DNA from: Solwaraspora sp. WMMD792
GTDB lineage: Bacteria; Actinomycetota; Actinomycetes; Mycobacteriales; Micromonosporaceae
Direction of reading: 5' to 3'
DNA length: 64,000 bases
Assembly: GCF_029626105.1 (NCBI RefSeq)
Contig: NZ_JARUBH010000009.1
Span: 2,666,001-2,730,000 of the forward strand
Numbering within the stretch: position 1 is the stretch's first letter; the number at the start of each line of letters is the position of its first letter. The notes beneath the pieces are model-generated. The model did not search any database. It saw nothing but the letters and a program-made list of their open reading frames with translations, and had not been told where the DNA came from. Below are positions 25,354-47,206 of the stretch, piece by piece. A program made the position numbers and the translations under genes.

Positions 25354-25373
25354 TTCCGACCAGCCGGTATGTT
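25354..25373. promoter_or_regulatory. TetR-type operator (a), LLM operon
   Basis: The site TTCCGACC-AGCC-GGTATGTT is one of six in the window. It overlaps the -10 box of the promoter at 25369-25397 and would block transcription of the 25337-17252 operon when bound. Confidence 0.75.
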
Positions 25374-25397
25374 ACCGCTGCGTTACTGGCACTGCAA
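25369..25397 (-). promoter_or_regulatory. Promoter of the LLM operon
   Basis: On the minus strand TTGCAG (25392-25397), 17-bp spacer, TAACAT (25369-25374). The leader to the GTG at 25337 is about 25 nt and carries GAGGAG. Confidence 0.6.
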
Positions 25398-25417
25398 GGT
25401 CTGCGCAGGTCAGCGCC

Positions 25418-26515
25418 TTAGTCCGTAGGGTGTCCCGGACCTGCCAGGCGCGCCTCGATCCGTAGCGCGCCGGCCCGGTGCCGGTGCCACCGGCCACGGC
25501 CGAGCCGGGCGTCGAGCACCAACGCCCGACGTAGGAACAGATGCGGATCCGCTTCCATGGTGATGCCCATCCCGCCGTGCACCTGGATCCCCCGCTCAGC
25601 GGCGAAGACCGCGGCCTTGCCCGCCGCCGCCTTCGCCGCGTGCACCTGGATCCCGGCGTCCGGGCGGCGGTTGTCGACCGCCCAGGCGGCGTAGAGCGTC
25701 AGGTCCCACGCCGCCTTGCGCGCGGTGGCGGCCTCGGCCAACTGGAACGCGACCCCCTGGAACGACCCGATCACCCTGCCGAACTGCACCCGGGTACGGG
25801 CCTGCTCGGCGGCCAACTCGATCGCGCCCTGCGCGACACCGCACAACTCGGCGGCGACCACCAGCGTCGCCCGCCACAACCCGGTGCCGACCGGGTCGAC
25901 CCGCTGCGGTGTGGACAGCGACACGTCCGACAGCGGCACCGACGGGTCGAACGACCGCCGCTCGGTGACCCCGGCCCGCTCGGTGACCCCGGCCCGCTCG
26001 GTGACCCCGGCCCGCTCGGCGAGTGCGGCAGCGTCGGCGATCCAGACCTCGTCGGGACCGGCGACGACGAACCCGTCCGCCTGAGCGGCGTACGGCACCA
26101 GGGTCCGCACCAGCGGATCCGGCACCGACCGGTCCGGCCAACCGGCCATGGACGGCACGTCGACCGCCGGGGTGAGCACTCGCCGGCCGTCGAGAATCTC
26201 GTCGGGCAGCGGCACCGACCGTCGGTCGTCGCCGCAGAGCAGCTGTACGGCGCCCGCGTGGGCCGCGAACCGAGTCGGGACCAGCTGCTCACCGAGCACC
26301 TCGACGGCGACGAGCAGGTCGATCAGAGCCGACCCGACACCGCCGGCCGACTCCGGCACGCCGAGCAGGCCGAAGTCGCGCAGCAGCGGCCCGTCGGCGG
26401 CGCAGGGCCGCCAACCGGCTGACAGCGCGGCCCGCGCCGCGCCGGCCTGCGCCTTGGCGAGGGCCGCGACGGTCCCGCCGATCTCCTGCTGTTCCTGGGT
26501 GAATGTCGCGTGCAC
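25418..26515 (-). CDS. Acyl-CoA dehydrogenase family protein, probable non-catalytic partner subunit
   Basis: A 365-residue acyl-CoA dehydrogenase-fold protein. The C-terminal FAD-side domain is present (ARTRVQFGRVIGSFQGVAFQLAE; ERGIQVHGGMGITME). The glutamate base normally found in an (I/Y)EGT motif near the C-terminus is not seen, and the middle domain is irregular. In actinobacterial steroid degradation such proteins pair with a catalytic partner as alpha2beta2 enzymes. The gene directly upstream (13 bp away) encodes a full enzyme, so a heteromer is likely. An in-frame 18-bp repeat (25961-26014) encodes ERAGVT three times. Confidence 0.8.
   Translation of the reverse strand: MHATFTQEQQEIGGTVAALAKAQAGAARAALSAGWRPCAADGPLLRDFGLLGVPESAGGVGSALIDLLVAVEVLGEQLVPTRFAAHAGAVQLLCGDDRRSVPLPDEILDGRRVLTPAVDVPSMAGWPDRSVPDPLVRTLVPYAAQADGFVVAGPDEVWIADAAALAERAGVTERAGVTERAGVTERRSFDPSVPLSDVSLSTPQRVDPVGTGLWRATLVVAAELCGVAQGAIELAAEQARTRVQFGRVIGSFQGVAFQLAEAATARKAAWDLTLYAAWAVDNRRPDAGIQVHAAKAAAGKAAVFAAERGIQVHGGMGITMEADPHLFLRRALVLDARLGRGRWHRHRAGALRIEARLAGPGHPTD
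25961..26014. repeat. 18-bp tandem repeat, three copies
   Basis: The unit CTCGGTGACCCCGGCCCG is repeated three times without error inside the acyl-CoA dehydrogenase gene and adds six residues per copy in a surface-type linker. Confidence 0.85.
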
Positions 26516-26528
26516 GCGGCCACTCCGC

Positions 26529-27680
26529 TCAACGTGAACGGGGCAGGTTCAGCACCCGCTCCGCGAGAATCGACTTCTGGACTTCCTCCGTGCCGCCCTC
26601 GATCGTGTGGGCGCGGGCACGCAGGTAGCGGTGCATCCGGGCGGCGGCGCCGGCACCGTCGAGAAGCACTCCGCCGGCGTCGTCGAGCTGCACCGCGAGC
26701 CGGTTCGCGTGCTGCACCACGCCGGCCCACAGACTCTTCAGCGCCGACGTCTCCGGGCCGGGGACGCCACCGGCGCGGCTCTCCGCCAGCATCCGCATCG
26801 ACCCGATCCGGACCGCCTCGGCGTCGCACTGCAACGCACCGATCGTGTCGACGACGGCGCTGTCGTCAGCCAGTCCCCGCGCTATCGCCAGATCGACGAC
26901 CCGGTCCACCGCCTGTCGGGCCCACACCCACAGGTTCAGCGCCATGCTGCCGCGTTCGAAGGCGAGCGTGGTGAGCGCGACCTTCCAGCCGTTGCCGACC
27001 CCGCCGAGCACGTCGGAATCGGGGACGAACACGTCGTCGAGGAACATCTCGTTGAACTCGGTGTCCCCGTTGATCATCACCAGTGGTCGGACGGTGAACC
27101 GGTCCATCGGGGCCAGGAAGTAGGTGATGCCCCGGTGCCGGGGCTCCTCGGGGTCGGTCCGCGCCAGCAGCAGACACCGGGAGGCGTTGTGCGCGTTGGA
27201 GGTCCAGATCTTGGTGCCGTTGATCAGCCAGCCGCCGTCGACCCGGGTCGCGGCGGTACGCAGACTCGCCAGGTCGGAGCCGGAGCCGGGCTCACTGAAG
27301 CCCTGGCACCAGTACTCCTCGCCGCGCAGGATGCCCGGCAGGTACCGGGCCTGCTGCTCGTCGCCGCCGTGCGCGATGATCGTCGGACCGGCCAGCATCA
27401 TGCCGACACCGTTGAGCGGGTACGGCGCGCCCCGGACCGCCGCCTCCTCGTTGAAGATCGCCTGCGCCAACGAGTCCATTCCCCGACCGCCGTGCTCGAC
27501 CGGCCAGGACAACCCGGCCCAGTTGCCGGCGCAGAGTCGCTCCTGCCAGACCCGTGACCAGTGCTCACGCTCGCTCTGGGACAGCTCCTCCTGATCGGGC
27601 ACGTCGCGCAGCGCCTGGTCGAGCCAACTGCCGGCCTCGCGCCGGAACGCGAGGTCGCTGTCGCTGTCATCGAAGTCCAC
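26529..27680 (-). CDS. Acyl-CoA dehydrogenase
   Basis: A 383-residue acyl-CoA dehydrogenase. The GTG at 27680 is chosen because AGGGGAG lies at normal spacing; an in-frame GTG ten codons upstream lacks this. Motifs: YWCQGFSEPGSGSDLASLRT and INGTKIWTSNAHNA in the middle domain, and HTIEGGTEEVQKSI near the C-terminus, where the Glu is the probable catalytic base. It introduces an alpha,beta double bond in an acyl-CoA with FAD. It probably forms a complex with the product of the next gene. Confidence 0.86.
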   Translation of the reverse strand: MDFDDSDSDLAFRREAGSWLDQALRDVPDQEELSQSEREHWSRVWQERLCAGNWAGLSWPVEHGGRGMDSLAQAIFNEEAAVRGAPYPLNGVGMMLAGPTIIAHGGDEQQARYLPGILRGEEYWCQGFSEPGSGSDLASLRTAATRVDGGWLINGTKIWTSNAHNASRCLLLARTDPEEPRHRGITYFLAPMDRFTVRPLVMINGDTEFNEMFLDDVFVPDSDVLGGVGNGWKVALTTLAFERGSMALNLWVWARQAVDRVVDLAIARGLADDSAVVDTIGALQCDAEAVRIGSMRMLAESRAGGVPGPETSALKSLWAGVVQHANRLAVQLDDAGGVLLDGAGAAARMHRYLRARAHTIEGGTEEVQKSILAERVLNLPRSR

Positions 27681-27719
27681 GCCGGGCTCCCCTGTCGTCG
27701 GACACCTCACACGTCGTGG

Positions 27720-29270
27720 TCACGCCGACACCTCCGGGGCACGGGTGAGCCGCGCCTTGTAGAGCTTGCCGTTGGGGTCGCGGGGCAACGCCGCGCGGAC
27801 GACGTACGAATGCGGACGTTTCGGCTTGGCCAGCCGTTCGGCGAGGTAGGTGCGGATCTGCGCGAGCGCCGTCTCGGCGTCGGGCGCGCTCTCGGTCAGC
27901 ACGACGTGGGCCTGCGGCACCTCGCCGAACTCAGGATCGGGTACGCCGACGACCCCGGCGTCGGCGATCCAGTCGTGGCCGAGCAACGCGGCCTCGATCT
28001 CGGCCGGGTAGACGTTGACCCCGCCGACCAGGATCAGTTCGGCCGCCCGGCCGGTGATGTAGAGGAAGCCGTCGGCGTCGACGTGGCCGACGTCCCAGAC
28101 GGTCATCAGCCCGTCGCGGCGGGCGCCGTCGGTCTTGCCGGGGTCGTTGTGGTACTCGACCCGGTCGGAGCCCTGACGCATGTAGACGATGCCGGTCTGC
28201 CCGACCGGCACCTCGTTGCCGAGCTCGTCGAGGATCCGCAGCGTCGAGATGGAGGCCGGACGACCGACCGTGCCCGGGTGGGCGAGCCACTCGTGCGGGC
28301 GGGCGATGGTGGTGCCGACCTCGGTCGAGCCGTAGTACTCGTAGACCACCGGGCCGAACCAGTCGAGGATGCGCTGCTTGACCTCGCGCGGGCACGGCGC
28401 GGCACCGTGCAGGACGTAGCGCAGCGAGGAGATGTCGTAGCTGTCGCGAACGCCCTGGGGCAGTTGCAGCAGCCGGTAGAAGTGGGTCGGCACCATGCTG
28501 GTCCCGGTGACCCGCCGCTCGTGGACCCGACGCAGGAAACCCTCCGGCGTCCAGCCGTCCATCAGCACCATCGTGCCGCCGGCGTGCAGGGCGCCCATCG
28601 CGGGGGTGATGTTCGCCGAGTGGTACAGCGGGGCCGAGACGAGCCAGGACCCGAACGCGGGACGTTCCATCCCGAACTCCTGGAACAACCACCGGTAGGT
28701 CGACGCACCGGTGTCGGCGTCGACTCCGGCCAGGGGCCGTTTCACCCCCTTCGGGCGGCCGGTGGTGCCCGAGGTGTACATCATCAGCGACCCGGCCGGG
28801 GTCTGCTCCGGGCTGACCGTCGACATACCGTCGGTGAGCTGCGACAACGGACGAACGCGATCGGTGGTGGGGACTCCGTCGACGTACATCTGGATCCCGG
28901 GCACGCCGACGGCGGCCGCGGCTGCGACGACCGACTCCACCCGCCCGGAACAGACGACCACCTTGGCGCCGCTGTCGGCGAGGATGTAGGCGATCTCCGG
29001 CTCGGTCAGGTGGTAGTTGAGCGTCACCAGGTAGAGCCCTGACTGCATCGCGGCCAGGTAGAGCGCGACCATGCCGGCACTGTTGGTCATCACCGCCGCG
29101 ACCGTGTCACCGGCACGCAGGCCCGCGCGGGTGCGCAGGCCGTGCGAGATCCGGTTCACCTCGGCGTACAGCTCGCCGTAGGAGATCTGCCGATCGTCGG
29201 CAGTCACGATCGCGCACAGGTCCGGCTCGGCGGCTGCCCAGAGCCGGAAGCCGGTCCGCTCGTCGCTCAT
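27720..29270 (-). CDS. Acyl-CoA ligase (AMP-binding family)
   Basis: A 516-residue ANL ligase and the first gene of a three-gene operon with the two acyl-CoA dehydrogenases. ATG 29270 follows AAGGAGT; the open frame extends further upstream but through non-homologous sequence. The phosphate loop is MMYTSGTTGRPKGVKRP and the adenine site YEYYGSTEVGTT. The C-terminal catalytic lysine is in DPNGKLYKA. It probably activates a fatty, steroid-like or other hydrophobic acid. Its promoter region (29271-29339) is shared with the divergent hydrolase gene and contains operator (b). Confidence 0.87.
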   Translation of the reverse strand: MSDERTGFRLWAAAEPDLCAIVTADDRQISYGELYAEVNRISHGLRTRAGLRAGDTVAAVMTNSAGMVALYLAAMQSGLYLVTLNYHLTEPEIAYILADSGAKVVVCSGRVESVVAAAAAVGVPGIQMYVDGVPTTDRVRPLSQLTDGMSTVSPEQTPAGSLMMYTSGTTGRPKGVKRPLAGVDADTGASTYRWLFQEFGMERPAFGSWLVSAPLYHSANITPAMGALHAGGTMVLMDGWTPEGFLRRVHERRVTGTSMVPTHFYRLLQLPQGVRDSYDISSLRYVLHGAAPCPREVKQRILDWFGPVVYEYYGSTEVGTTIARPHEWLAHPGTVGRPASISTLRILDELGNEVPVGQTGIVYMRQGSDRVEYHNDPGKTDGARRDGLMTVWDVGHVDADGFLYITGRAAELILVGGVNVYPAEIEAALLGHDWIADAGVVGVPDPEFGEVPQAHVVLTESAPDAETALAQIRTYLAERLAKPKRPHSYVVRAALPRDPNGKLYKARLTRAPEVSA

Positions 29271-29278
29271 CGGACTCC

Positions 29279-29308
29279 TTGAGTTAAATTCCGACCATCC
29301 GGTATGTT
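29279..29308 (+). promoter_or_regulatory. Divergent promoter region with TetR-type operator (b)
   Basis: The operator TTCCGACC-ATCC-GGTATGTT occupies 29289-29308. A plus-strand promoter TTGAGT (29279-29284), 18-bp spacer, TATGTT (29303-29308) would be fully covered by it. The minus-strand ligase gene starts at 29270, so one bound repressor could silence both directions. Confidence 0.7.
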
Positions 29309-29339: not shown

Positions 29340-30356
29340 ATGTCCAGACCCGTGAACGACACGCATGCCGCCAGCTATCACGCCCGGCAGATACCGGCTC
29401 CGACCGAGGTCACCGACGGCGTCTGGGCGATCCCGATCCCGCTGCGCGGCAGCGCACTGCGCTACGTCACCGTCTTCCTGGTCGACATCGGTGACGGTGC
29501 CGTTCTGATCGACGCCGGCTACGACCACCCGAGCTGCTGGCAGTCGTTCACCGAATCGGTCGCCGCGATCGGCCACCGGATCGAGACGATCTCCACCGTC
29601 CTGCTCACCCACAACCACCCGGACCACATCGGCTTCGCCGCCCGGGTCCGGGCGCTGTCCGGTGCCTCGGTGGTCATGGGGCAGGCCGACGACTTCGCCA
29701 CCATGCACCGGGGCAGGGGCGGCTTCCTCACCCAGCTGCGGACCGCCCTCACCACGACCGGCGCCCCGCCCGACGTCGTCGAGGCGATGTACGCCGACGC
29801 GGTCGCGGTCACCGCGCACCACGAGGACCTGCGGATCGACCTGGCCGTGGCCGACGAGACCGAGTTCCGGTTCGGCGACGTGACCATTCGCGCCGTGCCA
29901 GCCCCGGGGCACACCTACGGGCACACCGTCTACTTCGACACCCGCGGCTCGGTCTTCACCGGCGACACGATGATGCCCGAGGGCCCCACCCAGCTCGCGA
30001 TCGTCAGCCGCGCCGACGACGACCCGGCGGCGGACCTGTTCCGGACGCTGCAGCGCGTCCGCGACCTCGGCGCGACGATCGCCTGCCCGGCCCACCAGTT
30101 CCCGTACCGCGACGTCGCGGCCCGCGCCGACGAGCTGGCTGCCTTCCACCGTGACGAGGTCGCCACCGTCAGCGCACTGGCCGGGACCGACGGGCAAACC
30201 ACCGCCTGGGACGTCGCCCGGCGGATGCGGTGGCGTAAGCCATGGGACGAACTCGGCCGGGGTACCCAACGGTTCTCCCTCGTCCATGCCCAGGCCCTGC
30301 TGCGGCACACGGCGGCGTCCACCGGTAGTCGTCAGTCGCGTCGCGGCCGGTCGTAG
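29340..30356 (+). CDS. Metallo-beta-lactamase-fold hydrolase
   Basis: A 338-residue MBL-fold protein with the zinc motif THNHPDH (His91, His93, Asp95, His96), followed by PGHTYGH and FTGD metal-ligand segments. The ATG has AGGGAGG upstream. In acyl-CoA catabolic loci such enzymes often cleave lactones or CoA thioesters, which would fit here. It is divergent from the ligase operon under operator (b). Its last 25 bp overlap the end of the convergent ligase gene. Confidence 0.83.
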   Translation: MSRPVNDTHAASYHARQIPAPTEVTDGVWAIPIPLRGSALRYVTVFLVDIGDGAVLIDAGYDHPSCWQSFTESVAAIGHRIETISTVLLTHNHPDHIGFAARVRALSGASVVMGQADDFATMHRGRGGFLTQLRTALTTTGAPPDVVEAMYADAVAVTAHHEDLRIDLAVADETEFRFGDVTIRAVPAPGHTYGHTVYFDTRGSVFTGDTMMPEGPTQLAIVSRADDDPAADLFRTLQRVRDLGATIACPAHQFPYRDVAARADELAAFHRDEVATVSALAGTDGQTTAWDVARRMRWRKPWDELGRGTQRFSLVHAQALLRHTAASTGSRQSRRGRS

Positions 30357-31948
30357 GTCCAGTCCGGGCGCGCCGACGACCGCAGCTCCCGCAGGCTCCG
30401 CTTCAGCACCTTGCCGGACGGATTCGTCGGGAACTCGTCCACTACGTAGATTTCCTTCGGCACCTTGAAGCCGCCGAGACGCTGCCGGGCGTGGGCGATC
30501 AGCGACTCGGGTTCCAGGCCGGGTCGGCCGATCACGAACGCCACCGGGACCTCCAGCCACACCGGATGCGGCGCCGCCACCACCGACGCGGCCAGCACCA
30601 GCGGGTGGTCGGCCAGTACGTTCTCGATCTCGGCACTGGACATGTTCTCCCCACCGCTGCGGATCATGTCCTTGAGTCGGTCGCGGATGTACAGGTAGCC
30701 GTCGGCGTCGAAGCGACCGATGTCGCCGGTGTGGAACCAGCCGTCGCGCCAGGCCGCCCGGGTCGCCTGCGGATCGTCGAGGTAGCCGGGGCTCACCTTT
30801 GGGCCCCGCGCGATCACCTCGCCGTCGTCACCGACCAGCACGTCGTTGCCGTCCGCGTCGACGACCCGTACCTGGACCCACGGCACGGGCAGGCCGACCG
30901 ACCCCTGCTTGGACCGCATGTGCGCCTCGTCCAGGTACGTCAGGGCGCTGCACGTCTCGGTGAGACCGTAACCCTCGATCAGCCGGGCGTCCGGAAAGAG
31001 CTCCCGCGCCACGGCGAACAACGCCGACGTGACCTGCGAATAGATGACCCACCGCACCGAGGTCAGATCGGCGACGACGACGTCGGCCGCACGGCGGACC
31101 ATGTCCAGCATCGTCGCCGCCATCACCATGCCGGTGATCCGCTCGGTCTCGATCGCCCGCAGTACCGCCGCCGGCTCGAACCGCCGGTGCAGCACCATCG
31201 TGCCGCCGACATGCCAGATGCCGAAGCCTGGCAGATCGGTGCCGCCGACGTGGTACAGCGGTGCGAAGTTCAGGATCCGGTCGCTCGGCCGCAGCCCGAG
31301 CTCGACGATCTGGGCGTGCATGTTCATGTTCACGTTGCCGTGGGTGAGCAGCACGCCCTTGGGCAGCCCGGTCGTGCCGGAGGTGTAGACGATCCGGTGC
31401 AGGGCCGCCTCGTCGAGATCGACGTCGGCGACTTGGGCACCCCGGTGGCTCCCGATCAGCGCGCGCACGTCGACCCAGCCGTCGTCGTCGATCGGTTCCA
31501 GCGCGAACCGGCGTACGTCGGCCGTCGGGCCGGCGCCGGCCTCGGTCAGCGCGGCGTCGGTCAGCGCGGCGTCGGTCAGCGCGGCGTCGGTCAGCGCGGC
31601 GTCGGTCAGCGCGGCGAACTCCGGGACCGTCGCGACCGCCTGGACCCGCGCGTGCCGCAGCAGCTTGGCCAGTTCGCCGGCGGTGAGCCGGTAGTTCAGT
31701 GGCACGAAGACCGCGCCGAGCTTCGACAACGCCAGCGACAGCAGCAGGAACTCGGGCACGTTGTTGGCGATGATCGCCACCCGGGCGTCGCGGCGGACTC
31801 CCTCGGCGGCCAGACCAGCGGCCAGGGCCTCGACGTCGGCGGCGAGCTGGCGGTGGGTCCACCGCCGGCCCTCGAAGACCAACGCGTCGGCGTCGGCGAA
31901 CCTCCGGGCGTTACCGGCCAGCATCGCGGCGACGTTCGCCGTACTCAT
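30332..31948 (-). CDS. Acyl-CoA ligase (AMP-binding family)
   Basis: A 538-residue ANL ligase, last gene of the long importer/thiolase operon. ATG 31948 overlaps the stop of the preceding ligase gene. The phosphate loop is IVYTSGTTGLPKGVLL, the adenine site EGYGLTETC, and the C-terminal lysine lies in NPSGKVLKRSL. A 15-bp tandem repeat at 31545-31617 gives a run of TDAAL units in a linker. Its closest neighbour in sequence is the adjacent ligase at 31945, so the pair may differ in substrate or act at different degradation steps. Confidence 0.87.
   Translation of the reverse strand: MSTANVAAMLAGNARRFADADALVFEGRRWTHRQLAADVEALAAGLAAEGVRRDARVAIIANNVPEFLLLSLALSKLGAVFVPLNYRLTAGELAKLLRHARVQAVATVPEFAALTDAALTDAALTDAALTDAALTEAGAGPTADVRRFALEPIDDDGWVDVRALIGSHRGAQVADVDLDEAALHRIVYTSGTTGLPKGVLLTHGNVNMNMHAQIVELGLRPSDRILNFAPLYHVGGTDLPGFGIWHVGGTMVLHRRFEPAAVLRAIETERITGMVMAATMLDMVRRAADVVVADLTSVRWVIYSQVTSALFAVARELFPDARLIEGYGLTETCSALTYLDEAHMRSKQGSVGLPVPWVQVRVVDADGNDVLVGDDGEVIARGPKVSPGYLDDPQATRAAWRDGWFHTGDIGRFDADGYLYIRDRLKDMIRSGGENMSSAEIENVLADHPLVLAASVVAAPHPVWLEVPVAFVIGRPGLEPESLIAHARQRLGGFKVPKEIYVVDEFPTNPSGKVLKRSLRELRSSARPDWTYDRPRRD
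31545..31617. repeat. 15-bp tandem repeat, about five copies
   Basis: The unit GTCAGCGCGGCGTCG is repeated four times exactly plus a partial copy, in frame within the ligase gene. There are no spacers, so this is not a CRISPR array. Confidence 0.88.
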
Positions 31949-33468
31949 CCGGCCACCGCCGTCTCGCGCAGCTGCTTCTTGAGCACCTTGCCGGAGTCGT
32001 TGCGCGGCAGCGACGTCACGATCTGCACGTACTTCGGCACCTTGTACCGGGCCAGTTCGGCCCGGCAGTGCTCGCGGATCCCCTCTGCGGTGGCGGTCGC
32101 GCCGGCGCGCAGGATCACGTACGCCTTCGGGACCTCGTCCCAGGTCGGGTCCGGCACCCCGATGACGGCGACCTCGCTGACGTCGGGATGCTTCGCGATG
32201 ACCCGTTCGATCTCGGCGCTGGCGATGTTCTCCCCACCGGACTTGATCAGGTCGGCGCGGCGGTCGACGAACCACAGGTAGCCGTCGGCGTCGATCCGCC
32301 CGACGTCGCCGGTCAGGAACCAACCGTCCCGACGGGTGCGCCGGTTGGCCTCGTCGTCGTTCCAGTAGCCGGGTGAGATCTTCTCGCCCCGGATGATGAT
32401 CTCCCCCGCCACGCCGGGCGGCACCGGCTGGAAGTGTTCGTCGACGATCCGGATGTGCACCCCGGGGAACGGCGCGCCGAGCGCGCCGAGCTTGCTCTGT
32501 TCGTGGGCGGCGTCCAGGTAGCAGACGCCGTTGCACAGCTCGGTCATGCCGAAGGTGTCCACCAGCCGTACGTGCGGCAGCCGGCGTTTCACCTCGCGCC
32601 GCACGCTGGGCGCGACCCCGGCGAAGAGCAGGTAGCGCAGCGACCCGAGGTCCGACTGGTCGTCGCGGTCGAGCAGCCCGAAGAGGATCTGTGCCGCCAG
32701 GACCATGCCGGTGATCCGCTCCCGGGCCACGGTCCGGGCGATGTCCGCGGCCTTGAACGTCGGGGTCAGCACCATCGTCGCGCCCGCCACGAACGTCGCC
32801 AGGCCCGGCGCCTCCAGCCCGCTGACGTGGAACAACGGAGCCGAGACGAGGATCCGGTCGGCTGCGGTGAGCTCCAGTTCGAGCACCTGCGCCAGGTGGT
32901 TGGCGGTGAGGTTGCCGCAGGTGTGGATGACGCCCTTCGGGCGTGCGGTGGTGCCGGAGGTGTAGAGCAGCCGGTGTATGTCGGCCGAGGTCTTCTCCGC
33001 GTCCGGCACCCGCACCCCCGGCGGCTGCGCGGCGAGCAGATCGGCCAGTCGACGGGCGTCGGCGACGACCCGGGTGCCGTTGGCCACCGTGATCCGCAGG
33101 CCGGTCGTGGTCGCCAGGGTGGCGGCGTCCGCAGCGAAGTCGTCGTCGTAGATCAGGGCGGTGACGCCGGCCTGGTCGATGACGTACGCCTGCTCGTTGG
33201 GGTGCAGCCGCCAGTTGAGCGGAACGGAGATGGCACCGAGGCGGCTCAGCGCCAGCAGTTCGATGACGTACGTGGCGGTGTTGCGCCCGAGCACCCCGAC
33301 CAGGTCGCCGACGCCGATGCCGACGGCGCGCAGCGCCGCCGCGTGCCGGTCGACGTCGGCGTCCAGTTCGGCGTAGGTCCAGCGGGACTCTCCGTCGACC
33401 AGCGCCTCCCGGTCGGCGCGGCGCAGCGCCTGCCGGCGCAGCGTTTCGGTGAAGTTGCTGGTCGCCAT
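31945..33468 (-). CDS. Acyl-CoA ligase (AMP-binding family)
   Basis: A 507-residue ANL ligase. It has LLYTSGTTARPKGVIHT as the phosphate loop, VDTFGMTELCNG in the adenine site, GYLWFVDRRADLIKSGGENI at the hinge, and a C-terminal NDSGKVLKKQL lysine. The start codon overlaps the stop of the VOC gene by one base, and its stop overlaps the next ligase start. Two ligases back to back in the same operon suggest either different side-chain intermediates or redundancy. Confidence 0.88.
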   Translation of the reverse strand: MATSNFTETLRRQALRRADREALVDGESRWTYAELDADVDRHAAALRAVGIGVGDLVGVLGRNTATYVIELLALSRLGAISVPLNWRLHPNEQAYVIDQAGVTALIYDDDFAADAATLATTTGLRITVANGTRVVADARRLADLLAAQPPGVRVPDAEKTSADIHRLLYTSGTTARPKGVIHTCGNLTANHLAQVLELELTAADRILVSAPLFHVSGLEAPGLATFVAGATMVLTPTFKAADIARTVARERITGMVLAAQILFGLLDRDDQSDLGSLRYLLFAGVAPSVRREVKRRLPHVRLVDTFGMTELCNGVCYLDAAHEQSKLGALGAPFPGVHIRIVDEHFQPVPPGVAGEIIIRGEKISPGYWNDDEANRRTRRDGWFLTGDVGRIDADGYLWFVDRRADLIKSGGENIASAEIERVIAKHPDVSEVAVIGVPDPTWDEVPKAYVILRAGATATAEGIREHCRAELARYKVPKYVQIVTSLPRNDSGKVLKKQLRETAVAG

Positions 33469-33962
33469 CAGCTGCCGCCTTCCCGCCGCCGGGCCAGGAT
33501 CTCCTCCCGGGACGGCAGCGCCACGAACTCCAGCAGGTTGCCGTCGAGGTCACGGGCCGCGAAAGCGGTGATCGGCCCGTAGTTGTCCAGCAGAACCTGG
33601 TTCGGCGGGCTCAGGCACTGCGCGCCGAGCTCGACCAGCCGGGCGTACAGCTCGTCCATCTCCGCCAGCGGCACCGCGAAGCTGAGCAGGAAGGTACCCA
33701 GTTCCAGATGTCCACCGGTCGCCGTCCGGGTCGCGGTGCCGTTCCACTCGATCAGTTCCAACTGGCCGATCTGGCTCGGTCCCTGCAGGTACTGGACCCG
33801 GCCGGCGGTGCCGGCGGGCAGGCCCAGCGACACCTCGATGCCGGGGCCGGCGACGTCGGCCCGCAGGGTCCGACGGTAGCCCAGCGCCTTCTCGTAGAAG
33901 TCCGCAGCCCGGTCGACGTCGGAGACGGTCACGGCCACATGGTGCACTTCGCTCACCGGCAT
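33468..33962 (-). CDS. VOC-family protein (methylmalonyl-CoA epimerase-like)
   Basis: A 164-residue vicinal-oxygen-chelate protein with VHHVAVTVSDVDRAADFYEKALGY at the start and AARDLDGNLLEFV near the end. This layout and length resemble methylmalonyl-CoA epimerases and related lactoylglutathione lyases. AAGGGAG precedes the ATG. Its place between an SDR and two ligases suggests action on an acyl-CoA intermediate, but the substrate is unknown. Confidence 0.75.
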   Translation of the reverse strand: MPVSEVHHVAVTVSDVDRAADFYEKALGYRRTLRADVAGPGIEVSLGLPAGTAGRVQYLQGPSQIGQLELIEWNGTATRTATGGHLELGTFLLSFAVPLAEMDELYARLVELGAQCLSPPNQVLLDNYGPITAFAARDLDGNLLEFVALPSREEILARRREGGS

Positions 33963-33984
33963 GGTGGCTCCCTTCCTTGACGGC

Positions 33985-39168: not shown

Positions 39169-39173
39169 GGCCG

Positions 39174-40097: not shown

Positions 40098-40939
40098 CGG
40101 CGCGACCTCCAGCGGGCACCGGGCATCGCGGCGAGCAGCTCGCGCGTGTAGTCGTTGCGGGGAGTGACGAAGACCGACTCGCACGGACCCGACTCGACGA
40201 CCCGGCCCTGGTACATGACGTACACGGTGTCGCAGACGGAGCGCACGACGGCGAGGTCGTGGCTGATCATCAGCAGGGCCGCGCCGGTGCTCTGCCGGAT
40301 CTGGGCCAGCAGCGCCAGCACGTCGGCCTGCACCGAGACGTCGAGGCCGGAGGTCGGTTCGTCCGCCACGATCAGCCGCGGCCGCATCAGCAGTGCCCGG
40401 GCGATGCAGACCCGCTGGGCCTGGCCGCCGGAGAGCTGGTGCGGGTAGCGGTCGAGGATCTGCGGCGCGAGCCGGACCCGGTCGAGCAGTTCGGTGTCGC
40501 TGATCCAGGAGGTGCGCTCGGGTTGCAGCCGGCGCAGTTCCCGCAGCCCGGAGCGGACCGACTGCCGCGGGTCGAGCGACCCGTGCGGATCCTGGAAGAC
40601 CACCTGCACCTCGGGGCGCAGCCGCCGCAGCCGCGCCCGACTGATCGAGGAGAGCTGGTGCCCGAGCAGCCGGATGGCTCCGTCGCCACGGGTGCCCAGC
40701 CCGGTGGCCGCCATGGCGAGCGTCGTCTTGCCGGATCCGGATTCGCCGACGACGGCGACGCTCTCGCCGGCGCCGATGCGCAGCGACACGTGGTCGACCG
40801 CGCGCAGCACCGTCCCCGTGCTCCGGTCGCGGTGCTCGACGACCAGATCGTCGACCACCAGCACGGCGGTGTCGGTGTCCGGGGTGCGGGGGTGCCGGGC
40901 GGGTTCGCCCGACACCCCCGTCTGCGCTGCTCCGGTCAT
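40094..40939 (-). CDS. ABC transporter ATP-binding protein (Opp/Dpp F type)
   Basis: A 281-residue ATPase with Walker A GESGSGKTT, signature LSGGQAQRVCIARAL, Walker B LIVADEPTSGLD and H-loop ISHD. The FQDPHGSLDPR segment is typical of peptide-importer ATPases. It lies 2 bp after the binding-protein gene and would pair with the 37493 product. Confidence 0.91.
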   Translation of the reverse strand: MTGAAQTGVSGEPARHPRTPDTDTAVLVVDDLVVEHRDRSTGTVLRAVDHVSLRIGAGESVAVVGESGSGKTTLAMAATGLGTRGDGAIRLLGHQLSSISRARLRRLRPEVQVVFQDPHGSLDPRQSVRSGLRELRRLQPERTSWISDTELLDRVRLAPQILDRYPHQLSGGQAQRVCIARALLMRPRLIVADEPTSGLDVSVQADVLALLAQIRQSTGAALLMISHDLAVVRSVCDTVYVMYQGRVVESGPCESVFVTPRNDYTRELLAAMPGARWRSRR

Positions 40940-40941
40940 CG

Positions 40942-42465
40942 TCAGCGGGTCGTCTTCGTGAAGTCCACGGTGTTCAGCGGACCGAAGTCGACGCCGGTGA
41001 CACCGGGGCCGGTCGCGTAGTTGAAGATCTGCCGGTAGAGCGGGACGTAGCAGTGCTTCTCGACCACTCCGATGGTGTTGAGCTGCTCGTAGATCGGGGC
41101 AGCCTGCTCGGCGCTGTCCTGTTCGAGCGCCTGCTGGGCAAGCTGGTCGATCTGCGGGTCGGGGCAGTTGCCGGTCAACGACGCGGTCTTCATGAAGCCG
41201 CTGACGAAGTAGTCCGGCACGGCGACGTTGGGTACTCCGGCGAAGATGGCGACGCCGGGGACCTGGCGGCCGATGATCCGCTGCACCAGGGTGCCGTAGT
41301 CGAGCGGCTCGTAGCTGACCGTGAAGCCGGCCTGTTCGAGGCTGCCGCCCACGGCCTGGGCGACCTCTTCGATGTTGGTGTACTGCGCCGCCGGATAGGT
41401 GATCTGCACGGCCGGGGCCGCGTCACCGACGAGTTGCGCGGCCTTTGCCGGGTCTGCGGTGACGCTGTCCTGCGGTTGCTGGCCGGGCCGGACGTTGAGC
41501 AGTCCGGCGTCGGCGGCGGCCTGGCCGTCGAAGATGCCGCTGACGATCGCGTCCCGGTCGATGGCCAGGGCAGCGGCCTCGCGCAACTGCGGGTCGTCGA
41601 ACGGGGCCTTGGTCGAGTCGAGGAAGGCGATGATCTTGATGGCGGTCTCGGTGCGGACCACGTCGACCCCGGCCGCCTCGGCCGCCTGCGCCTGGGCCGG
41701 CGGTAGGTCGAAGGAGACGTCCACGGTCCCGCTCTGGATCAACGCGAGCCGCTGCGCGGCCTCGTTTGCCCAGGTGAAGGTGACGCCGTCGTTCGTCGGT
41801 TCGTCGCCCCAGTAGTCGGGGTTCTTGGTGACCGAGATGTCGCGGCCGGCGTTGGCGCCGGCCCACACGTACGGGCCGGTGCCGACTGGTGCTGCGGCGA
41901 AGCCTTCGGACCCCTGCTCCTGGTAGTAGGCCGGTGGGACCAGGTAGACCGTGGTGAGCAGGTCGGGAATGTTGTACTGCGGCGTGCCGGTGGTGACCAC
42001 GACGGTGGCGTCGTCGGTTGCCTCGATCGAGGTGACGTTGCTGAAGTAGGACTTCAGCGGTGACCCCTCGGTGTCGCGGGTGAGGGTGATGGTGTTCGCG
42101 ACGGCGGCCGCGTCGGCCGCTTCCCCGTTGCTGAAGGTGATGTCGGGGCGGACGGTGAACGTCCAGGTCGTGGCGTCGGTACGGGTCCAGTTGGTGATCA
42201 GACCGGTGTCGGTGGGCGCGAGGTCTTCGTCGATGTCGATCAGTGGTTCGAGCATTGTCGCCCAGACCACCTGGGCGGAGCGCGCACCGACGATCGGATC
42301 GAGGGTGGCGGGCTGGGCCGCGAGCAGCGCACGGATGATGGTCGGGCCGGACGACCCGGTGTCATCGGGTTCGGTGCCACCGCAGGCGGTCAGGCCGACG
42401 CTGGCGACAGTGATGGCGGCGGCGGCCACGAGGGGCCGCCGGGAACGCAGGATTTTCATGATCAT
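40942..42465 (-). CDS. Substrate-binding lipoprotein of an Opp/Dpp-type importer
   Basis: A 507-residue family-5 solute-binding protein. The N-terminal signal ends in a lipobox VGLTAC, with lipidated Cys28. The mature protein begins the fold at LLAAQPATLDPIVGARSAQV and carries APVGTGPYVW, the usual family signature. It is the first gene of a roughly 12-kb operon (42465 down to 30332) that also encodes the acyl-CoA enzymes, so the importer very likely brings in the substrate of this island. Confidence 0.9.
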   Translation of the reverse strand: MIMKILRSRRPLVAAAAITVASVGLTACGGTEPDDTGSSGPTIIRALLAAQPATLDPIVGARSAQVVWATMLEPLIDIDEDLAPTDTGLITNWTRTDATTWTFTVRPDITFSNGEAADAAAVANTITLTRDTEGSPLKSYFSNVTSIEATDDATVVVTTGTPQYNIPDLLTTVYLVPPAYYQEQGSEGFAAAPVGTGPYVWAGANAGRDISVTKNPDYWGDEPTNDGVTFTWANEAAQRLALIQSGTVDVSFDLPPAQAQAAEAAGVDVVRTETAIKIIAFLDSTKAPFDDPQLREAAALAIDRDAIVSGIFDGQAAADAGLLNVRPGQQPQDSVTADPAKAAQLVGDAAPAVQITYPAAQYTNIEEVAQAVGGSLEQAGFTVSYEPLDYGTLVQRIIGRQVPGVAIFAGVPNVAVPDYFVSGFMKTASLTGNCPDPQIDQLAQQALEQDSAEQAAPIYEQLNTIGVVEKHCYVPLYRQIFNYATGPGVTGVDFGPLNTVDFTKTTR

Positions 42466-42532: not shown

Positions 42533-42561
42533 AAAGTACCGACCAGCCGGTATCAAGTCAA
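42533..42561 (-). promoter_or_regulatory. Promoter of the importer operon with TetR-type operator (c) in the spacer
   Basis: On the minus strand TTGACT (42556-42561), exactly 17 bp, TACTTT (42533-42538). The operator TACCGACC-AGCC-GGTATCAA spans 42537-42556 and fills the spacer, which is ideal for repression. Confidence 0.72.
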
Positions 42562-42622: not shown

Positions 42623-42651
42623 TTGTGAACATACCGACCGGTATGTATGAT
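42623..42651 (+). promoter_or_regulatory. Promoter of the crotonase operon with TetR-type operator (d) in the spacer
   Basis: TTGTGA (42623-42628), 17 bp, TATGAT (42646-42651). The operator CATACC-GACC-GGTATG core (42628-42647) fills the spacer and is the most symmetrical of the six. Transcription should start near 42658, at a GTG codon, suggesting a leaderless mRNA. Confidence 0.7.
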
Positions 42652-42657: not shown

Positions 42658-43395
42658 GTGGCCCCTACCCTCACCCCTCGGCACGACGGACGCCTCATCC
42701 GGGTGCGCTACGACAACGCGGCCCGCGGCAACTGCTTCGACGACACCGCGCTGCATGAACTCGTCCACGCGTTGGAGACCGCCGCGGCCGTTGACAGCTG
42801 CGCGGTCGTCGAGCTCGCGATGGCCGGCCGGAACTTCTGCGGTGGCTGGGACACCACGGCGTTCACCGAGCTGGCCGGCAGTTCACCCGAGACGGTGGCG
42901 GACAGCCTGCGCGCCAGCGACGCCGCACTGCGGCGGATCCGGCGACTCCCGGTGCCAGTGGTCGCCGCGGTCCGGGGCCGGGTGATCGGCTTCGGCGCCG
43001 GCCTGCTCGACGCCGTACACCTGCCGATCGCCGCGACCAGCGCCCGCCTGTCGCTACCCGAGGCCCGGTTCGGCTTCGCCCCCGCCGGCGTCGGCTACGC
43101 GATCGCCCGGGCGCTACCCCGGCCACAGGCCTACCACCTGCTGACCGGGGCCACGACCGCGTCCGCCGACCAGATGCTCGCCTGGGGGCTGGTCGCCGAG
43201 GTCGTCGCCGACGACGATCTCGACCGCGCGACCGCGGCTCTGGTCGAGGCGCTGCTCGCCGTACCCGGCCGCACCCTGCGAGCAGTGGTCGAGGTCGTCG
43301 AGTCGAGCCGGGCCACCGGCCGGCCCGATCACGCCTACGACGTCTCGGCGCGCACCATCGTCGCCGGTGTCGCCGCGCGCGGGGCGGACCGATGA
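42658..43395 (+). CDS. Enoyl-CoA hydratase/isomerase family protein
   Basis: A 245-residue crotonase. The fold runs from LIRVRYDNAARGNCFDD through the oxyanion segments MAGRNFCGGWDTT and VRGRVIGFGAGLLDA. Possible starts are GTG 42625, ATG 42643 and GTG 42658. The first two lie in the promoter, so GTG 42658 at the predicted transcription start is preferred. It would hydrate or isomerise an enoyl-CoA. The next gene overlaps its stop (ATGA), forming a three-gene operon with a VOC protein and the flavin reductase. Confidence 0.82.
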   Translation: MAPTLTPRHDGRLIRVRYDNAARGNCFDDTALHELVHALETAAAVDSCAVVELAMAGRNFCGGWDTTAFTELAGSSPETVADSLRASDAALRRIRRLPVPVVAAVRGRVIGFGAGLLDAVHLPIAATSARLSLPEARFGFAPAGVGYAIARALPRPQAYHLLTGATTASADQMLAWGLVAEVVADDDLDRATAALVEALLAVPGRTLRAVVEVVESSRATGRPDHAYDVSARTIVAGVAARGADR

Positions 43396-44201
43396 GCGGT
43401 CGATTCCAGGCTGGCGAGGCCGTCTGGGTGGAGTTGGCCACCCCCGATCCGGACAAGGTCGAACCGTTCTACCGCGCGTTACTCGGCTGGACGGTGCGTG
43501 CCGAACGGCTCGGTGCCACCACCTACCGGATGTGTGGCATCGACGGACGCGACGTGGCCGGCATCTCCGACGCCGCCGCGCTGCACGCCGGCCGGCCAAG
43601 GGGCTGGATCGTCTACTTCGCGGTCGACGACGTCAGTCGGAGCGCCACCCGGGCGGTCCAGCTCGGCGGCGAGCTGGTCACCCCGCCGCGATATCTGCCG
43701 GCCGCCGGCACCGGCGCCGTCGTCATCGACCCGTTCGGCGCCGCGTTCGGCCTCTACCAGGGCGAGTCGCGCACCGGCGTGCAGCTGCTCAACTCGGTCG
43801 GCGCACTGTGCTGGAACGAATTGAACACCGGGGAGCCCGCCGCCTCGGTGAGCTACTACCGGTCCCTGTTCGGCTACGTCACCCGGCGGACGACAGACAC
43901 GCCCACCGCCCGCCCGTACACCCTGCTGATGCTCGGCGACGTCGCGGTCGCCGGCGTGCTGGCACTCGACAACGATTGGCCGAACCTGATCCCGGCGAAG
44001 TGGATCACCTACTTCGCCGTGGATTCCCTGGACGACGCGCTGCGGCGGGTCTGCGCGCTCGGCGGGACGCCGACCGTCGGCCCGGTCCGGAGCCCGTACG
44101 GACGTCTTCACCTGGTGAAGGATCCCGGCGGCCATTCACTTTGCCTCATCCAGCTCGACGGCGGCCTGCGCCCCGGGCACGACTCCTCCCCCAGGCGGTG
44201 A
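43392..44201 (+). CDS. Two-domain VOC-family protein
   Basis: A 269-residue protein with two vicinal-oxygen-chelate repeats (about 8-125 and 135-260). Each has an FY-x-ALLGW or YYRSLFGY segment and a DPFG or DPGG strand near its end. The first repeat resembles the actinomycete 27-kDa antigen CFP30B type. Substrate unknown. It overlaps the crotonase gene and is followed by the flavin reductase 7 bp later. Confidence 0.78.
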   Translation: MSGRFQAGEAVWVELATPDPDKVEPFYRALLGWTVRAERLGATTYRMCGIDGRDVAGISDAAALHAGRPRGWIVYFAVDDVSRSATRAVQLGGELVTPPRYLPAAGTGAVVIDPFGAAFGLYQGESRTGVQLLNSVGALCWNELNTGEPAASVSYYRSLFGYVTRRTTDTPTARPYTLLMLGDVAVAGVLALDNDWPNLIPAKWITYFAVDSLDDALRRVCALGGTPTVGPVRSPYGRLHLVKDPGGHSLCLIQLDGGLRPGHDSSPRR

Positions 44202-44208
44202 CCTCCCG

Positions 44209-44724
44209 ATGACGGCCGAGCCACTGTTCGACTCGACGGAGTTCCGTCAGGTGTGTGGTCACTTCCCCACCGGCGTCACCGCGGTCACCGCGATCACCGC
44301 CCAGGGCGGCGTCGCCGCGCTGACCGTGAACTCGTTCACCTCGGTCTCGCTGCAGCCGGCGAAGGTGCTGTTCTGTGTGACCAGCTCCTCGTCCAGCTTC
44401 CCGACCCTGGTCGGATCCGAACGGATCGCCATCCACATCCTCAGCCGGGACCAGGAGGACGTGGCGCGCCGGTTCGCCACGTCCGGTCTGACCGGCGCGG
44501 AGAAACTCGCCGGGGTGTCCTGGCTGCCCGGTCCGGACGGGGTTCCGCTGCTGCCCGGCACACCGGCGGTGCTCGCCGGACGACGCGACGAGGTGATCAC
44601 CAGCGGTGACCATGTCATCTTCCTGCTCGACATCGACCACGTGCATCTGAAGCCGACGAGCGTGCCGGCGTTGTCGTTCTACCGGGGACGGTTCGTCAGT
44701 CCGTCGGCCACCGCGACCGAGTGA
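44209..44724 (+). CDS. Flavin reductase (FMN-binding, HpaC-like)
   Basis: A 171-residue flavin reductase-domain protein: FRQVCGHFPTGVTAVTA at the start, ALTVNSFTSVSLQPAKVLFC at the flavin site, and DHVIFLLDIDHV near the end. Family members reduce FMN or FAD with NAD(P)H and pass it to a monooxygenase. It is the only such gene in the island, so it is the natural partner of the four LLM monooxygenases. This argues that at least some use FMNH2 and not F420. Confidence 0.85.
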   Translation: MTAEPLFDSTEFRQVCGHFPTGVTAVTAITAQGGVAALTVNSFTSVSLQPAKVLFCVTSSSSSFPTLVGSERIAIHILSRDQEDVARRFATSGLTGAEKLAGVSWLPGPDGVPLLPGTPAVLAGRRDEVITSGDHVIFLLDIDHVHLKPTSVPALSFYRGRFVSPSATATE

Positions 44725-44766: not shown

Positions 44767-45252
44767 TCAGCTGTAGTACCGGAACAGGATCTCGGCCACG
44801 CAGCAGGGAGTCGACTGGTCGGCGAACTCCACTGTCACCGAGGCCTTGGCCTGCACGCCGTCCCCGGTACCGGGGACGGCGGCGATCGGCTGGGCCGACA
44901 CCAGCGTTGCGGTGCCCTGGATCGGCACACCGGGCGGCAACGGCCGGACGAACCGGACCCGGTCCAGCCCGTAGTTGACGCCCATGGCGAAGGTCTGCAC
45001 CTCGAGGATGTCCGCGAGCAGGCGCGGGACGAGCGCCAGGGTCAGGAATCCGTGCACGACGGTGGTGCCGAACGGGCCGGACCGCGCCCGCTCGACGTCG
45101 ACGTGGATCCACTGGTGGTCCCCGGTGACGTCGGCGAACTGGTCGATCTGCCGCTGGGTAACCACCTGCGGCGCACTGGCCCCCAGCTCCGTGCCGACCA
45201 GGTCGAGCAGGTCACCCGGGCTACGCACGATCGTCCGTGATGCGGTTCGCAT
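44767..45252 (-). CDS. MaoC-family (R)-specific enoyl-CoA hydratase
   Basis: A 161-residue hot-dog-fold protein. The hydratase motif is FADVTGDHQWIHVD with the catalytic Asp and His, followed by GPFGTTVVHGFLTLAL. ATG 45252 has GGAG six nt upstream. It hydrates enoyl-CoAs to 3-hydroxyacyl-CoAs. It is divergent from the acyl-CoA dehydrogenase gene at 45346 with operator (e) between them. Confidence 0.87.
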   Translation of the reverse strand: MRTASRTIVRSPGDLLDLVGTELGASAPQVVTQRQIDQFADVTGDHQWIHVDVERARSGPFGTTVVHGFLTLALVPRLLADILEVQTFAMGVNYGLDRVRFVRPLPPGVPIQGTATLVSAQPIAAVPGTGDGVQAKASVTVEFADQSTPCCVAEILFRYYS

Positions 45253-45294
45253 GGTCACTCCAGTTGGCGAACGGGCCATCGGCGGCCCTCTTCA

Positions 45295-45314
45295 TTCCGA
45301 CCGGATGGTATCAT
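45295..45314. promoter_or_regulatory. TetR-type operator (e), divergent region
   Basis: TTCCGACC-GGAT-GGTATCAT lies between the MaoC gene and the acyl-CoA dehydrogenase gene. A TATCAT at 45309-45314 could be the plus-strand -10 box. Confidence 0.7.
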
Positions 45315-45345: not shown

Positions 45346-46497
45346 GTGGTGTTCGAGGCGTACCAGCTGCCGGATGAGCACGCCGCCGTACGGGAGGCCG
45401 TACGACAGGTGTGCGACGACAAGGTCGCACCGCACGCGGCGGCCGCCGACGAGAACGCCGAGTTCCCGCAGGCCTCCTACGACGCGCTGCGCGCCGCCGA
45501 CTTCCACGCCCCGCACATCCCCGTCGAGTACGGCGGCGCCGGTGCGGACGCCCTCGCCACCGCGATCGTCATCGAGGAAGTGGCGCGGGCGTGTGCCACC
45601 TCGTCACTGATCCCGGCCGGCAACAAGCTCGGGACCATGCCGCTGCTGCTCGCCGCCGGCGAGCACCTCAAGCAGCGGTATCTTCCACCGGTCGCCCGGG
45701 GCGAGGCGATGTTCTCGTACTGCCTGTCCGAACCCGACGCCGGCAGCGACGCGGCCGGCATGCGGACCCGCGCCGAACGCGACGGCGACTCCTGGGTGCT
45801 CAACGGGGTCAAGCGCTGGATCACCAACGCCGGACTGAGCGAGTACTACACGGTCTTCGCCGTCACCGACCCGGCGGCACGCTCGCGCGGCATCTCCGCC
45901 TTCGTGGTGGAGAGGTCCGATCCCGGGGTCAGCTTCGGCGCGCCGGAGCGCAAGCTCGGCATCAAGGGATCCCCGACCCGCGAGGTGTACCTCGACAACG
46001 TCCGCGTCCCGGCGGACCGGGTCATCGGTGCGCCGGGAACCGGCTTCGCGACGGCGATGCGGACGCTGGACCACACCCGGGTCACCATCGCCGCTCAGGC
46101 CCTGGGCATCGCCCAGGGCGCGCTGGACTACGCCCTGGGTTACGTACGGCAACGACAGCAGTTCGGCCGGGCCATCGCCGATTTCCAGGGGGTCCAGTTT
46201 CTCCTCTCGGACATGGGCATGACCCTGGAGGCGGCACGGCAGCTCACCTACGCGGCCGCCGGCAGGTCCGAGCGGGGCGAGCCGGACCTGACCTACTTCG
46301 GCGCGGCAGCCAAGTGCTTCGCTTCCGACGCGGCGATGAAGATCACCACCGACGCCGTCCAACTGCTCGGCGGCTACGGGTACACCCGTGACTTCCCGGT
46401 GGAACGGATGATGCGCGACGCCAAGATCACCCAGATCTACGAGGGCACCAACCAGGTGCAACGGGTCGTCATGGCCCGCCAGCTGCTCGCCGGCTGA
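45346..46497 (+). CDS. Acyl-CoA dehydrogenase
   Basis: A 383-residue acyl-CoA dehydrogenase of the short/medium-chain type. Motifs: YCLSEPDAGSDAAGM and WITNAGLSEYY in the middle domain, RQQFGRAIADFQGVQF, and KITQIYEGTNQVQ with the catalytic Glu. GTG start with GGGAGG upstream. It is complete and catalytic, unlike the 25418 product. Its gene ends 15 bp from the convergent tetR stop. Confidence 0.9.
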   Translation: MVFEAYQLPDEHAAVREAVRQVCDDKVAPHAAAADENAEFPQASYDALRAADFHAPHIPVEYGGAGADALATAIVIEEVARACATSSLIPAGNKLGTMPLLLAAGEHLKQRYLPPVARGEAMFSYCLSEPDAGSDAAGMRTRAERDGDSWVLNGVKRWITNAGLSEYYTVFAVTDPAARSRGISAFVVERSDPGVSFGAPERKLGIKGSPTREVYLDNVRVPADRVIGAPGTGFATAMRTLDHTRVTIAAQALGIAQGALDYALGYVRQRQQFGRAIADFQGVQFLLSDMGMTLEAARQLTYAAAGRSERGEPDLTYFGAAAKCFASDAAMKITTDAVQLLGGYGYTRDFPVERMMRDAKITQIYEGTNQVQRVVMARQLLAG

Positions 46498-46512
46498 CCG
46501 GCCCTTCCCGGT

Positions 46513-47148
46513 TCAGCGAAGACCGTCGAGCACCATCGCGCTGAACTGGCGCGCCACCTCGTCGATGCTGAGCGGACCGTCGACGTTGAGCCACTGGTAC
46601 GCCCAGGCGCACATGCCCACCAGCCCGAAGGTGACGATCCGCGGGTCCATGTCCGCGCGGAGGACACCACGGGCGATACCGTCGGAGATCATGCCGGCGA
46701 AGGCCGCCTCCACCGCGTCCCGCTTGCGCGTCACCTCGGCGAACATGTCTCCGGCGAGGTACCGCCGCTCCTGGTAGAAGATCGTCACGTGTGCCCGGTA
46801 CTCGGCCACGCTGGTCAGGCTGAACCGGATCAGCTCCGCCACCCGTACCGCTGGGTCGTCGCTGCCGGCCTCGATCTGCTGGATCGCGGCCAGTTGCGCC
46901 TCCAGGTACTCCTCCTGGATGTGCCGCAGCAGGTCGTCCTTGCTCTCGAAGTGGTGGTAGAAGGCACCCTTGGTCAGCCCGGCCTGGTCGGCGATCTCCT
47001 GTACCGACGTCCGGTCGAAACCCCGACGCCCGAACAGTTCCAGCGCGCTGGCGATCAACGACTTGCGGGTGTTCTCCGGGTCGTAGCCGTCGGCCCAGCG
47101 TTGCCTGCGCCGGGTCGCCGCCGGGCGGTTGGACGTCGCACGAGCCAT
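46513..47148 (-). CDS. TetR-family repressor of the catabolic island
   Basis: A 211-residue TetR protein. The helix-turn-helix is at about 25-70 (LFGRRGFDRTSVQEIADQAGLTKGAFYHHFESKDDLL) and the variable ligand domain follows. ATG 47148 has GGAGG at good spacing. The longer open frame upstream is not homologous. An operator copy (f) lies 39 bp upstream, so it is probably autoregulated. Because all six operators are in this island, this protein is the best candidate to bind them, with an acyl-CoA as the likely inducer. Confidence 0.88.
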   Translation of the reverse strand: MARATSNRPAATRRRQRWADGYDPENTRKSLIASALELFGRRGFDRTSVQEIADQAGLTKGAFYHHFESKDDLLRHIQEEYLEAQLAAIQQIEAGSDDPAVRVAELIRFSLTSVAEYRAHVTIFYQERRYLAGDMFAEVTRKRDAVEAAFAGMISDGIARGVLRADMDPRIVTFGLVGMCAWAYQWLNVDGPLSIDEVARQFSAMVLDGLR

Positions 47149-47186
47149 CGGTGGCCTCCGCTTCCCGCTCCACTCGGAGCCCGACA

Positions 47187-47206
47187 ATCCTACCGCCCGG
47201 TCGGAA
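47187..47206. promoter_or_regulatory. TetR-type operator (f), upstream of tetR
   Basis: Read on the minus strand it is TTCCGACC-GGGC-GGTAGGAT. TAGGAT could be the -10 box of the tetR promoter. Confidence 0.65.

Follow-up and report, generated by a model that had tools for sequence, protein, structure and literature searches.

Six copies of one 20-bp imperfect palindrome in a 64,000-nucleotide stretch of the genome of Solwaraspora sp. WMMD792 (contig NZ_JARUBH010000009.1; hereafter the window) are, as we hold with high confidence from the sequence, operators of a local TetR repressor (46516–47148) that would control its own gene and an island of acyl-CoA (coenzyme A) catabolic genes, and that would probably be released from DNA by a CoA thioester. 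The link between the island genes and their own repressor is very probably real. This kind of system is well known; the more interesting part is the island itself, which is unusual, patchily distributed and in one case plasmid-borne. The six sites had been proposed in a sequence-only reading of the window and all occur at the coordinates that it gave (25354, 29289, 42537, 42628, 45295 and 47187):

25354..25373 (+): candidate operator S1, TTCCGACCAGCCGGTATGTT, overlapping the −10/start region of a leftward operon for luciferase-like (LLM) oxidoreductases; promoter on the minus strand with −35 TTGCAG at 25397–25392, 17 bp, and −10 TAACAT at 25374–25369 (hexamers by eye)
29289..29308 (+): candidate operator S2, TTCCGACCATCCGGTATGTT, between a divergent CoA-ligase operon (−) and a metallo-beta-lactamase-fold (MBL) hydrolase gene (+); overlaps the −10-like TATGTT at 29303–29308, with TTGAGT 18 bp upstream (hexamers by eye)
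42537..42556 (+): candidate operator S3, TACCGACCAGCCGGTATCAA, filling the 17-bp spacer of the promoter of the leftward ABC-transporter/CoA operon; minus strand, −35 TTGACT at 42561–42556 and −10 TACTTT at 42538–42533 (hexamers by eye)
42628..42647 (−): candidate operator S4, TACATACCGGTCGGTATGTT, a nearly perfect palindrome filling the 17-bp spacer of the promoter of the rightward enoyl-CoA hydratase (ECH)-VOC-flavin reductase operon; plus strand, TTGTGA at 42623–42628 and TATGAT at 42646–42651
45295..45314 (+): candidate operator S5, TTCCGACCGGATGGTATCAT, between divergent genes for a MaoC dehydratase (−) and an acyl-CoA dehydrogenase (+)
47187..47206 (−): candidate operator S6, TTCCGACCGGGCGGTAGGAT, upstream of tetR, where it would serve autoregulation; ends in the −10-like TAGGAT

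An ACC-N4-GGT core is common to all six sites and the left arm CCGACC to five of them, and dyad symmetry is almost complete at 42628 (7 of 8 positions) and partial at the remaining five (4 to 6 of 8). The 20-mer consensus of the sequence-only reading does align the sites, but it is slightly too strict, as 42537 ends in GGTATCAA and 47187 in GGTAGGAT. At up to 3 mismatches, this 20-mer gave 8 rows in the window against 0.97 expected, a number that none of 100 shuffles reached; these rows were the six sites, an overlapping second register of the 42628 site (42632) and a place at 27073 within the gene 26529–27710, which lacks the GGT arm. When ACC-N4-GGT was fixed and up to 4 mismatches were allowed, the window yielded exactly the six sites, and with a leave-one-out weight matrix that ignored the spacer all six held-out sites outscored every non-site 20-mer on both strands of the 64 kb. 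The carboxylase, LacI and Rieske genes had been said to lack the site, and none was found there by the motif searches of the window.

The positions of all six sites agree with the claim that each lies at an island promoter or upstream of tetR, and those at 42537 and 42628 exactly fill 17-bp promoter spacers, as had been noticed. The −10 hexamer of the S3 promoter is a poor match, yet both of its hexamers are invariant in 11 aligned sequences, whereas TTGTGA-17-TATGAT at S4 was the only promoter-like site in a promoter scan of 42400–42800. A GTG at 42658 falls at about the expected transcription start, and the ECH transcript is possibly leaderless. The sites had been taken to tie together five operons and the regulator; the joint link stands but the count was too low, since 29289 and 45295 lie between divergent genes, which brings the covered units to as many as seven for enzymes or transport, in addition to tetR.

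In the whole genome (7,397,507 bases), the degenerate pattern TWCMKACCNNNNGGTAKSWW had 6 exact matches, all of them the six sites, and its backwards control had none. As the pattern was fitted to the six sites, these exact matches are built in, and the actual result is the scarcity of matches elsewhere. Allowing 1 mismatch added two more registers of the 42628 site and two places outside the island, both of which we took as chance: 6156272 is inside a predicted gene, and 6567663 has a broken ACC core, although the gene downstream of it resembles a dehydratase gene by eye. The strict pattern thus passed the genome-wide search that the sequence-only reading had called for, in which matches confined to the island would support it; it did so likewise in the 11 further family genomes that carry the island, and nearly so in five more genomes and a plasmid considered below. 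One result weighs against this reading: a looser pattern admitting GGTCNG arms, at up to 2 mismatches, had 477 matches in the genome (217 for its backwards control), and confinement to the island therefore holds for the strict form only.

Operator columns are more conserved than the rest of the promoter gaps. In the promoter alignments we combined the window with nine further family genomes that carry the island, leaving out of the 11 available G093 and G114, whose TetR is 99 percent identical to that of the window. Operator columns were invariant at 20 of 20 positions for 25354, 20 of 20 for 29289 and 36 of 40 for 42537 and 42628 together, against 14 of 54, 23 of 46 and 74 of 152 non-operator columns in the same gaps. 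Adding a Streptomyces plasmid, these numbers became 19/20, 16/20 and 32/40 for the operators, against 10/54, 14/46 and 46/152 for the other columns. Even the 4 bp between the arms, on which the pattern sets no condition, read AGCC at 25354 and ATCC at 29289 in all 12 island genomes.

The sites keep to the same genes in Nocardioides, Conexibacter, an Acidimicrobiia metagenome-assembled genome (MAG) and the Streptomyces plasmid, and a site similar to S5 precedes the acyl-CoA dehydrogenase gene in relatives. Conexibacter has a TetR 45 percent identical and a rearranged island, with TTCCGACCATTCGGTATGTT, its arms exact, in the divergent gap between the MBL and CoA-ligase genes, and one-mismatch sites (ACT for ACC) elsewhere in the island. 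At up to 1 mismatch, three Nocardioides genomes, Conexibacter, the MAG and the plasmid together gave 33 rows, 28 in the island and 5 elsewhere; the backwards control gave 8 in all (4 in the MAG), which puts the 5 outside rows at about chance level. The linear plasmid, NZ_CP121683.1 of Streptomyces cathayae (L105, 50000–99000), carries nearly the same gene set, from an LLM gene to tetR and MaoC, without the acyl-CoA dehydrogenase of the 45295 site, and its TetR is 51 percent identical to that of the window. IS3- and IS6-family transposases lie on the flanks of the plasmid island, the F420 reductase gene npdG is nearby, and an extra phosphotransferase/acyl-CoA dehydrogenase pair is found on its left.

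Regulator, island and sites also co-occur. Among 200 family genomes, 13 have a TetR ortholog (E up to 1e-60), and an enzyme that we used as island marker (19548–20519; E up to 1e-80) is present in 12 of these 13 and nowhere else in the sample. The same 12 genomes have 4 to 6 rows of the strict pattern without mismatch (where a palindromic site may be counted once per strand) and the 13th has none; strict matches occur in 29 of the 187 genomes without the ortholog, never in more than 2 rows. In 11 of the 12 island genomes no row lies farther than ~28 kb from tetR; the other one (G095) has tetR on a different contig. Of the 396 genomes in a phylum-wide sample, two contained the marker enzyme, that of the window and one from the family, so that the island is rare and patchy. 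The genome that keeps the TetR ortholog but has neither marker enzyme nor sites is G075, which we took to be the same as that of locus L011 from matching coordinates. The TetR gene there (10001–10606) has internal deletions, stands without any further island gene in the 10 kb fetched on each side, and looks like a decaying remnant. Another locus (L005, 4932–8986) has extra SnoaL-like, nitroreductase, zinc dehydrogenase and enoyl-CoA hydratase genes between those for the acyl-CoA dehydrogenase and MaoC. In some relatives our simple GC3 gene caller placed genes on the wrong strand, and no conclusions were drawn from it for them.

The regulator gene itself is the following:

46516..47148 (−): tetR, a predicted repressor of 211 amino acids with ATG start at 47148, TetR_N and TetR_C_24 domains and the recognition-helix region TKGAFYHHFESK

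The sequence-only reading had correctly seen a TetR protein here, but had started it at 47532, in an over-long open reading frame. The protein belongs to the family by its matches to PF00440 (E 3.5e-19) and PF17932 (TetR_C_24, E 2.4e-28), both above the cut-off, and its structure model is all-helical, with TetR folds as best structural matches; AibR with isovaleryl-CoA and PfmR head this list, although TetRs not associated with CoA match the fold too. Like the window, 9 of the 11 Micromonosporaceae loci (L001–L011) have a site ahead of tetR, and Conexibacter (L015) has a weak one. None was found upstream of the gene in L004, L011, L012–L014 and L016–L022, which include the three Nocardioides and the Acidimicrobiia MAG. 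Since tetR sits after the MaoC gene on the same strand in Nocardioides and on the Streptomyces plasmid, it may be transcribed from another promoter there. In the window, the layout is that expected of a local autoregulated catabolic TetR regulon: sites at the catabolic promoters next to the regulator, one before its own gene, and few elsewhere.

The core and the CCGACC arm place the sites in the PfmR/PaaR operator class, of which they lack the full dyad symmetry of both arms. In 80 TetR loci collected by six peptide patterns (FYHHFESK among them), a well-scoring site lay at most 400 bp upstream of tetR in 31, against 22 of 2563 other stretches. These 31 comprise 4 from L001–L022, where the score is stricter than in the own-gene count above, and 27 from L023–L080, and they include Chloroflexi, Gammaproteobacteria and Bacillota. 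L023–L080 consequently failed as a negative control for the motif, since the operator class is itself found at many of these distant TetRs. Four further sites of this class (L135, L136, L137 and L138) were seen in three family genomes without the island TetR, three of them adjoining genes that look acyl-CoA dehydrogenase- or SDR-like by eye; in G051 and G069 the 6 kb fetched contain a further TetR gene, in G188 they do not. Other local TetRs may use the same operator sequence, which seems to be a recurrent class and old property of this TetR branch, the regulon being one local use of it.

A close parallel in operator layout comes from PaaR, the TetR repressor of phenylacetate catabolism in Burkholderia cenocepacia. 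In excerpts of its published description, the PaaR operator ACCGACCGGTCGGT lies between the −10 and −35 elements of several operons, with a weaker repeat at the regulator's own unit, and a genome search is specific to the pathway (PMC2770484). As far as these excerpts go, PaaR and the island have in common the operator core, its placement in promoters and its presence at several operons plus the regulator's own unit; pathway and phylum differ, and the near-perfect PaaR repeats contrast with the differing arms of the island sites. PfmR (TTHB023) of Thermus thermophilus shares the core too, but its sites are at fatty-acid biosynthesis genes in several genome places instead of one island. Whole-protein homology, in turn, leads to the KstR2 group (4W97 and 4W1U, residues 27–210, E 4e-22). 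KstR2, a mycobacterial repressor of late steroid catabolism, has an operator (AnCAAGnnCTTGnT) unlike the island sites, and no CAAGnnCTTG occurs within 30 bases on either side of any of the six. AibR, a TetR solved with isovaleryl-CoA and operator DNA, resembles the island TetR by fold.

The island (18556–47148) has about 27 genes for catabolism and uptake, among them four CoA ligases in all, arranged in the following units:

18556..25337 (−): S1 unit; four LLM oxidoreductases, the enoyl-CoA hydratase-like marker (19548–20519) and a CoA ligase
25418..29270 (−): S2 left unit; two acyl-CoA dehydrogenases (small and large) and a CoA ligase
29340..30356 (+): S2 right unit; MBL-fold hydrolase
30332..42465 (−): S3 unit; two CoA ligases, a VOC protein, an SDR, a thiolase and an HMG-CoA-synthase-like protein, with a dipeptide/nickel-type ABC importer (two ATPases, two permeases, solute-binding protein)
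42658..44724 (+): S4 unit; enoyl-CoA hydratase-like, VOC/glyoxalase-like and flavin reductase proteins
44767..45279 (−): S5 left unit; MaoC-type dehydratase
45346..46497 (+): S5 right unit; acyl-CoA dehydrogenase

Equivalents of the S1 unit are annotated on the Streptomyces plasmid, from whose annotated equivalents the HMG-CoA-synthase label and the second permease of the S3 unit were also taken. The HMG-CoA-synthase-like protein (36076–37476, −) is divergent, has a cysteine-rich stretch near its C-terminal part, and gave no Pfam match at 1e-5. We took the LLM gene 18556–19539, present in 8 of 8 left-end stretches from relatives, as the left edge. In 2 of these stretches it has the next two window genes of the left side as neighbours, and one stretch is too short for a judgement; the PaaX-like regulator gene 17252–18202 (−), beside the left end in only 2 of 8 relatives with the same proviso, was rejected as an island member. 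About 3 kb to the left of the island lies an IS200/IS605-type pair (TnpB-like protein and Y1 transposase, 13732–15457). Adjoining the island on its other side, the gene 47216–52687 (−) encodes a single-chain biotin-dependent carboxylase of 1823 amino acids (biotin carboxylase, biotinyl domain, ACC_central and carboxyltransferase), which we take to resemble the eukaryotic multidomain acetyl-CoA carboxylase. It was rejected as a regulon member, having no site and no similar gene in the relatives' loci (the 22 closest TetR loci, with 2 to 10 kb covered on that side, gave no tblastn match at a limit of E 1e-8). Enzyme families and solved relatives led to no substrate assignment, as they are too general. 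The titles and abstracts listed by literature searches, largely outside subscription journals, revealed no such cluster, and a search for one exact 15-base palindrome retrieved no paper.

In the mechanism that we propose, a TetR dimer would bind the imperfect palindrome, whose arms, 4 bp apart, mostly read CCGACC and CATACC, within core promoters. At 42537 and 42628 it would cover the −35/−10 spacer and at 25354 the −10/start region; at 29289, at 45295 and before tetR it would lie over a −10-like hexamer. RNA polymerase would thereby be blocked at up to seven enzyme or transport units and at tetR itself, and the location of operators over −35/−10 spacers favours repression. The substrate would enter via the ABC transporter and be activated by one of the CoA ligases; a CoA thioester of the pathway would then probably bind the C-terminal domain, the repressor would leave the DNA and the whole island (18556–47148) would be induced together.

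The sites could instead belong to another regulator, whether a second TetR protein encoded in the genome or a global regulator of acyl-CoA metabolism, with the island TetR acting on an own, unseen operator. The use of this operator class by other TetR proteins, the 35 matches to the island TetR in the same genome (itself included, E up to 0.001) and the abundance of looser matches would fit this possibility. Nevertheless, strict sites occur almost only alongside the island TetR and the island, one of them precedes tetR, sites are missing from the genome that retains the TetR ortholog but not the marker enzyme, and no operator site was found within ~1.5 kb of the 11 next-best paralogs, so that we consider it improbable. 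Still less credible, to the point of being very hard to sustain, is that a special sigma factor recognises the repeats as its promoter elements: they do lie in promoters and their right arms resemble −10 hexamers (TATGTT, TATCAT and TAGGAT), but neither their orientation nor their position with respect to the gene is fixed (in the spacer, at the −10 or downstream of it), two of them bear conserved −35/−10 elements at their outer edges, and the inverted ACC-N4-GGT core is constant, in agreement with published TetR operators.

The more serious alternative, though we regard it as unlikely, accepts that the island TetR controls the sites but with the free substrate or another metabolite as ligand, or with the protein activating some promoters. 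Excerpted text of PMC8700777 points both ways, with EdcR of a catabolic cluster responding to free estrogens and KstR2 to the CoA thioester HIP-CoA. The fold is also matched by non-CoA TetRs, whereas the position of AibR with isovaleryl-CoA and of PfmR at the head of the structural list and the four CoA ligases of the island argue for a CoA thioester.

The regulon gives an objective boundary (18556–47148) to a rare catabolic island. Whether this island represents an undescribed, horizontally moving catabolic module is for us an evenly balanced question; such a module of ~27 genes with its own repressor and operators would pass between classes of Actinomycetota and encode a CoA-thioester route. 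The route would centre on four LLM oxidoreductases, of which some may depend on F420, together with four CoA ligases, an HMG-CoA-synthase-like protein paired with a thiolase, and a peptide-type importer. The repressor would be usable as a biosensor for finding the inducer. For this TetR branch as a whole, the comparison suggests that the operator has been kept over great distances while the regulated genes change.

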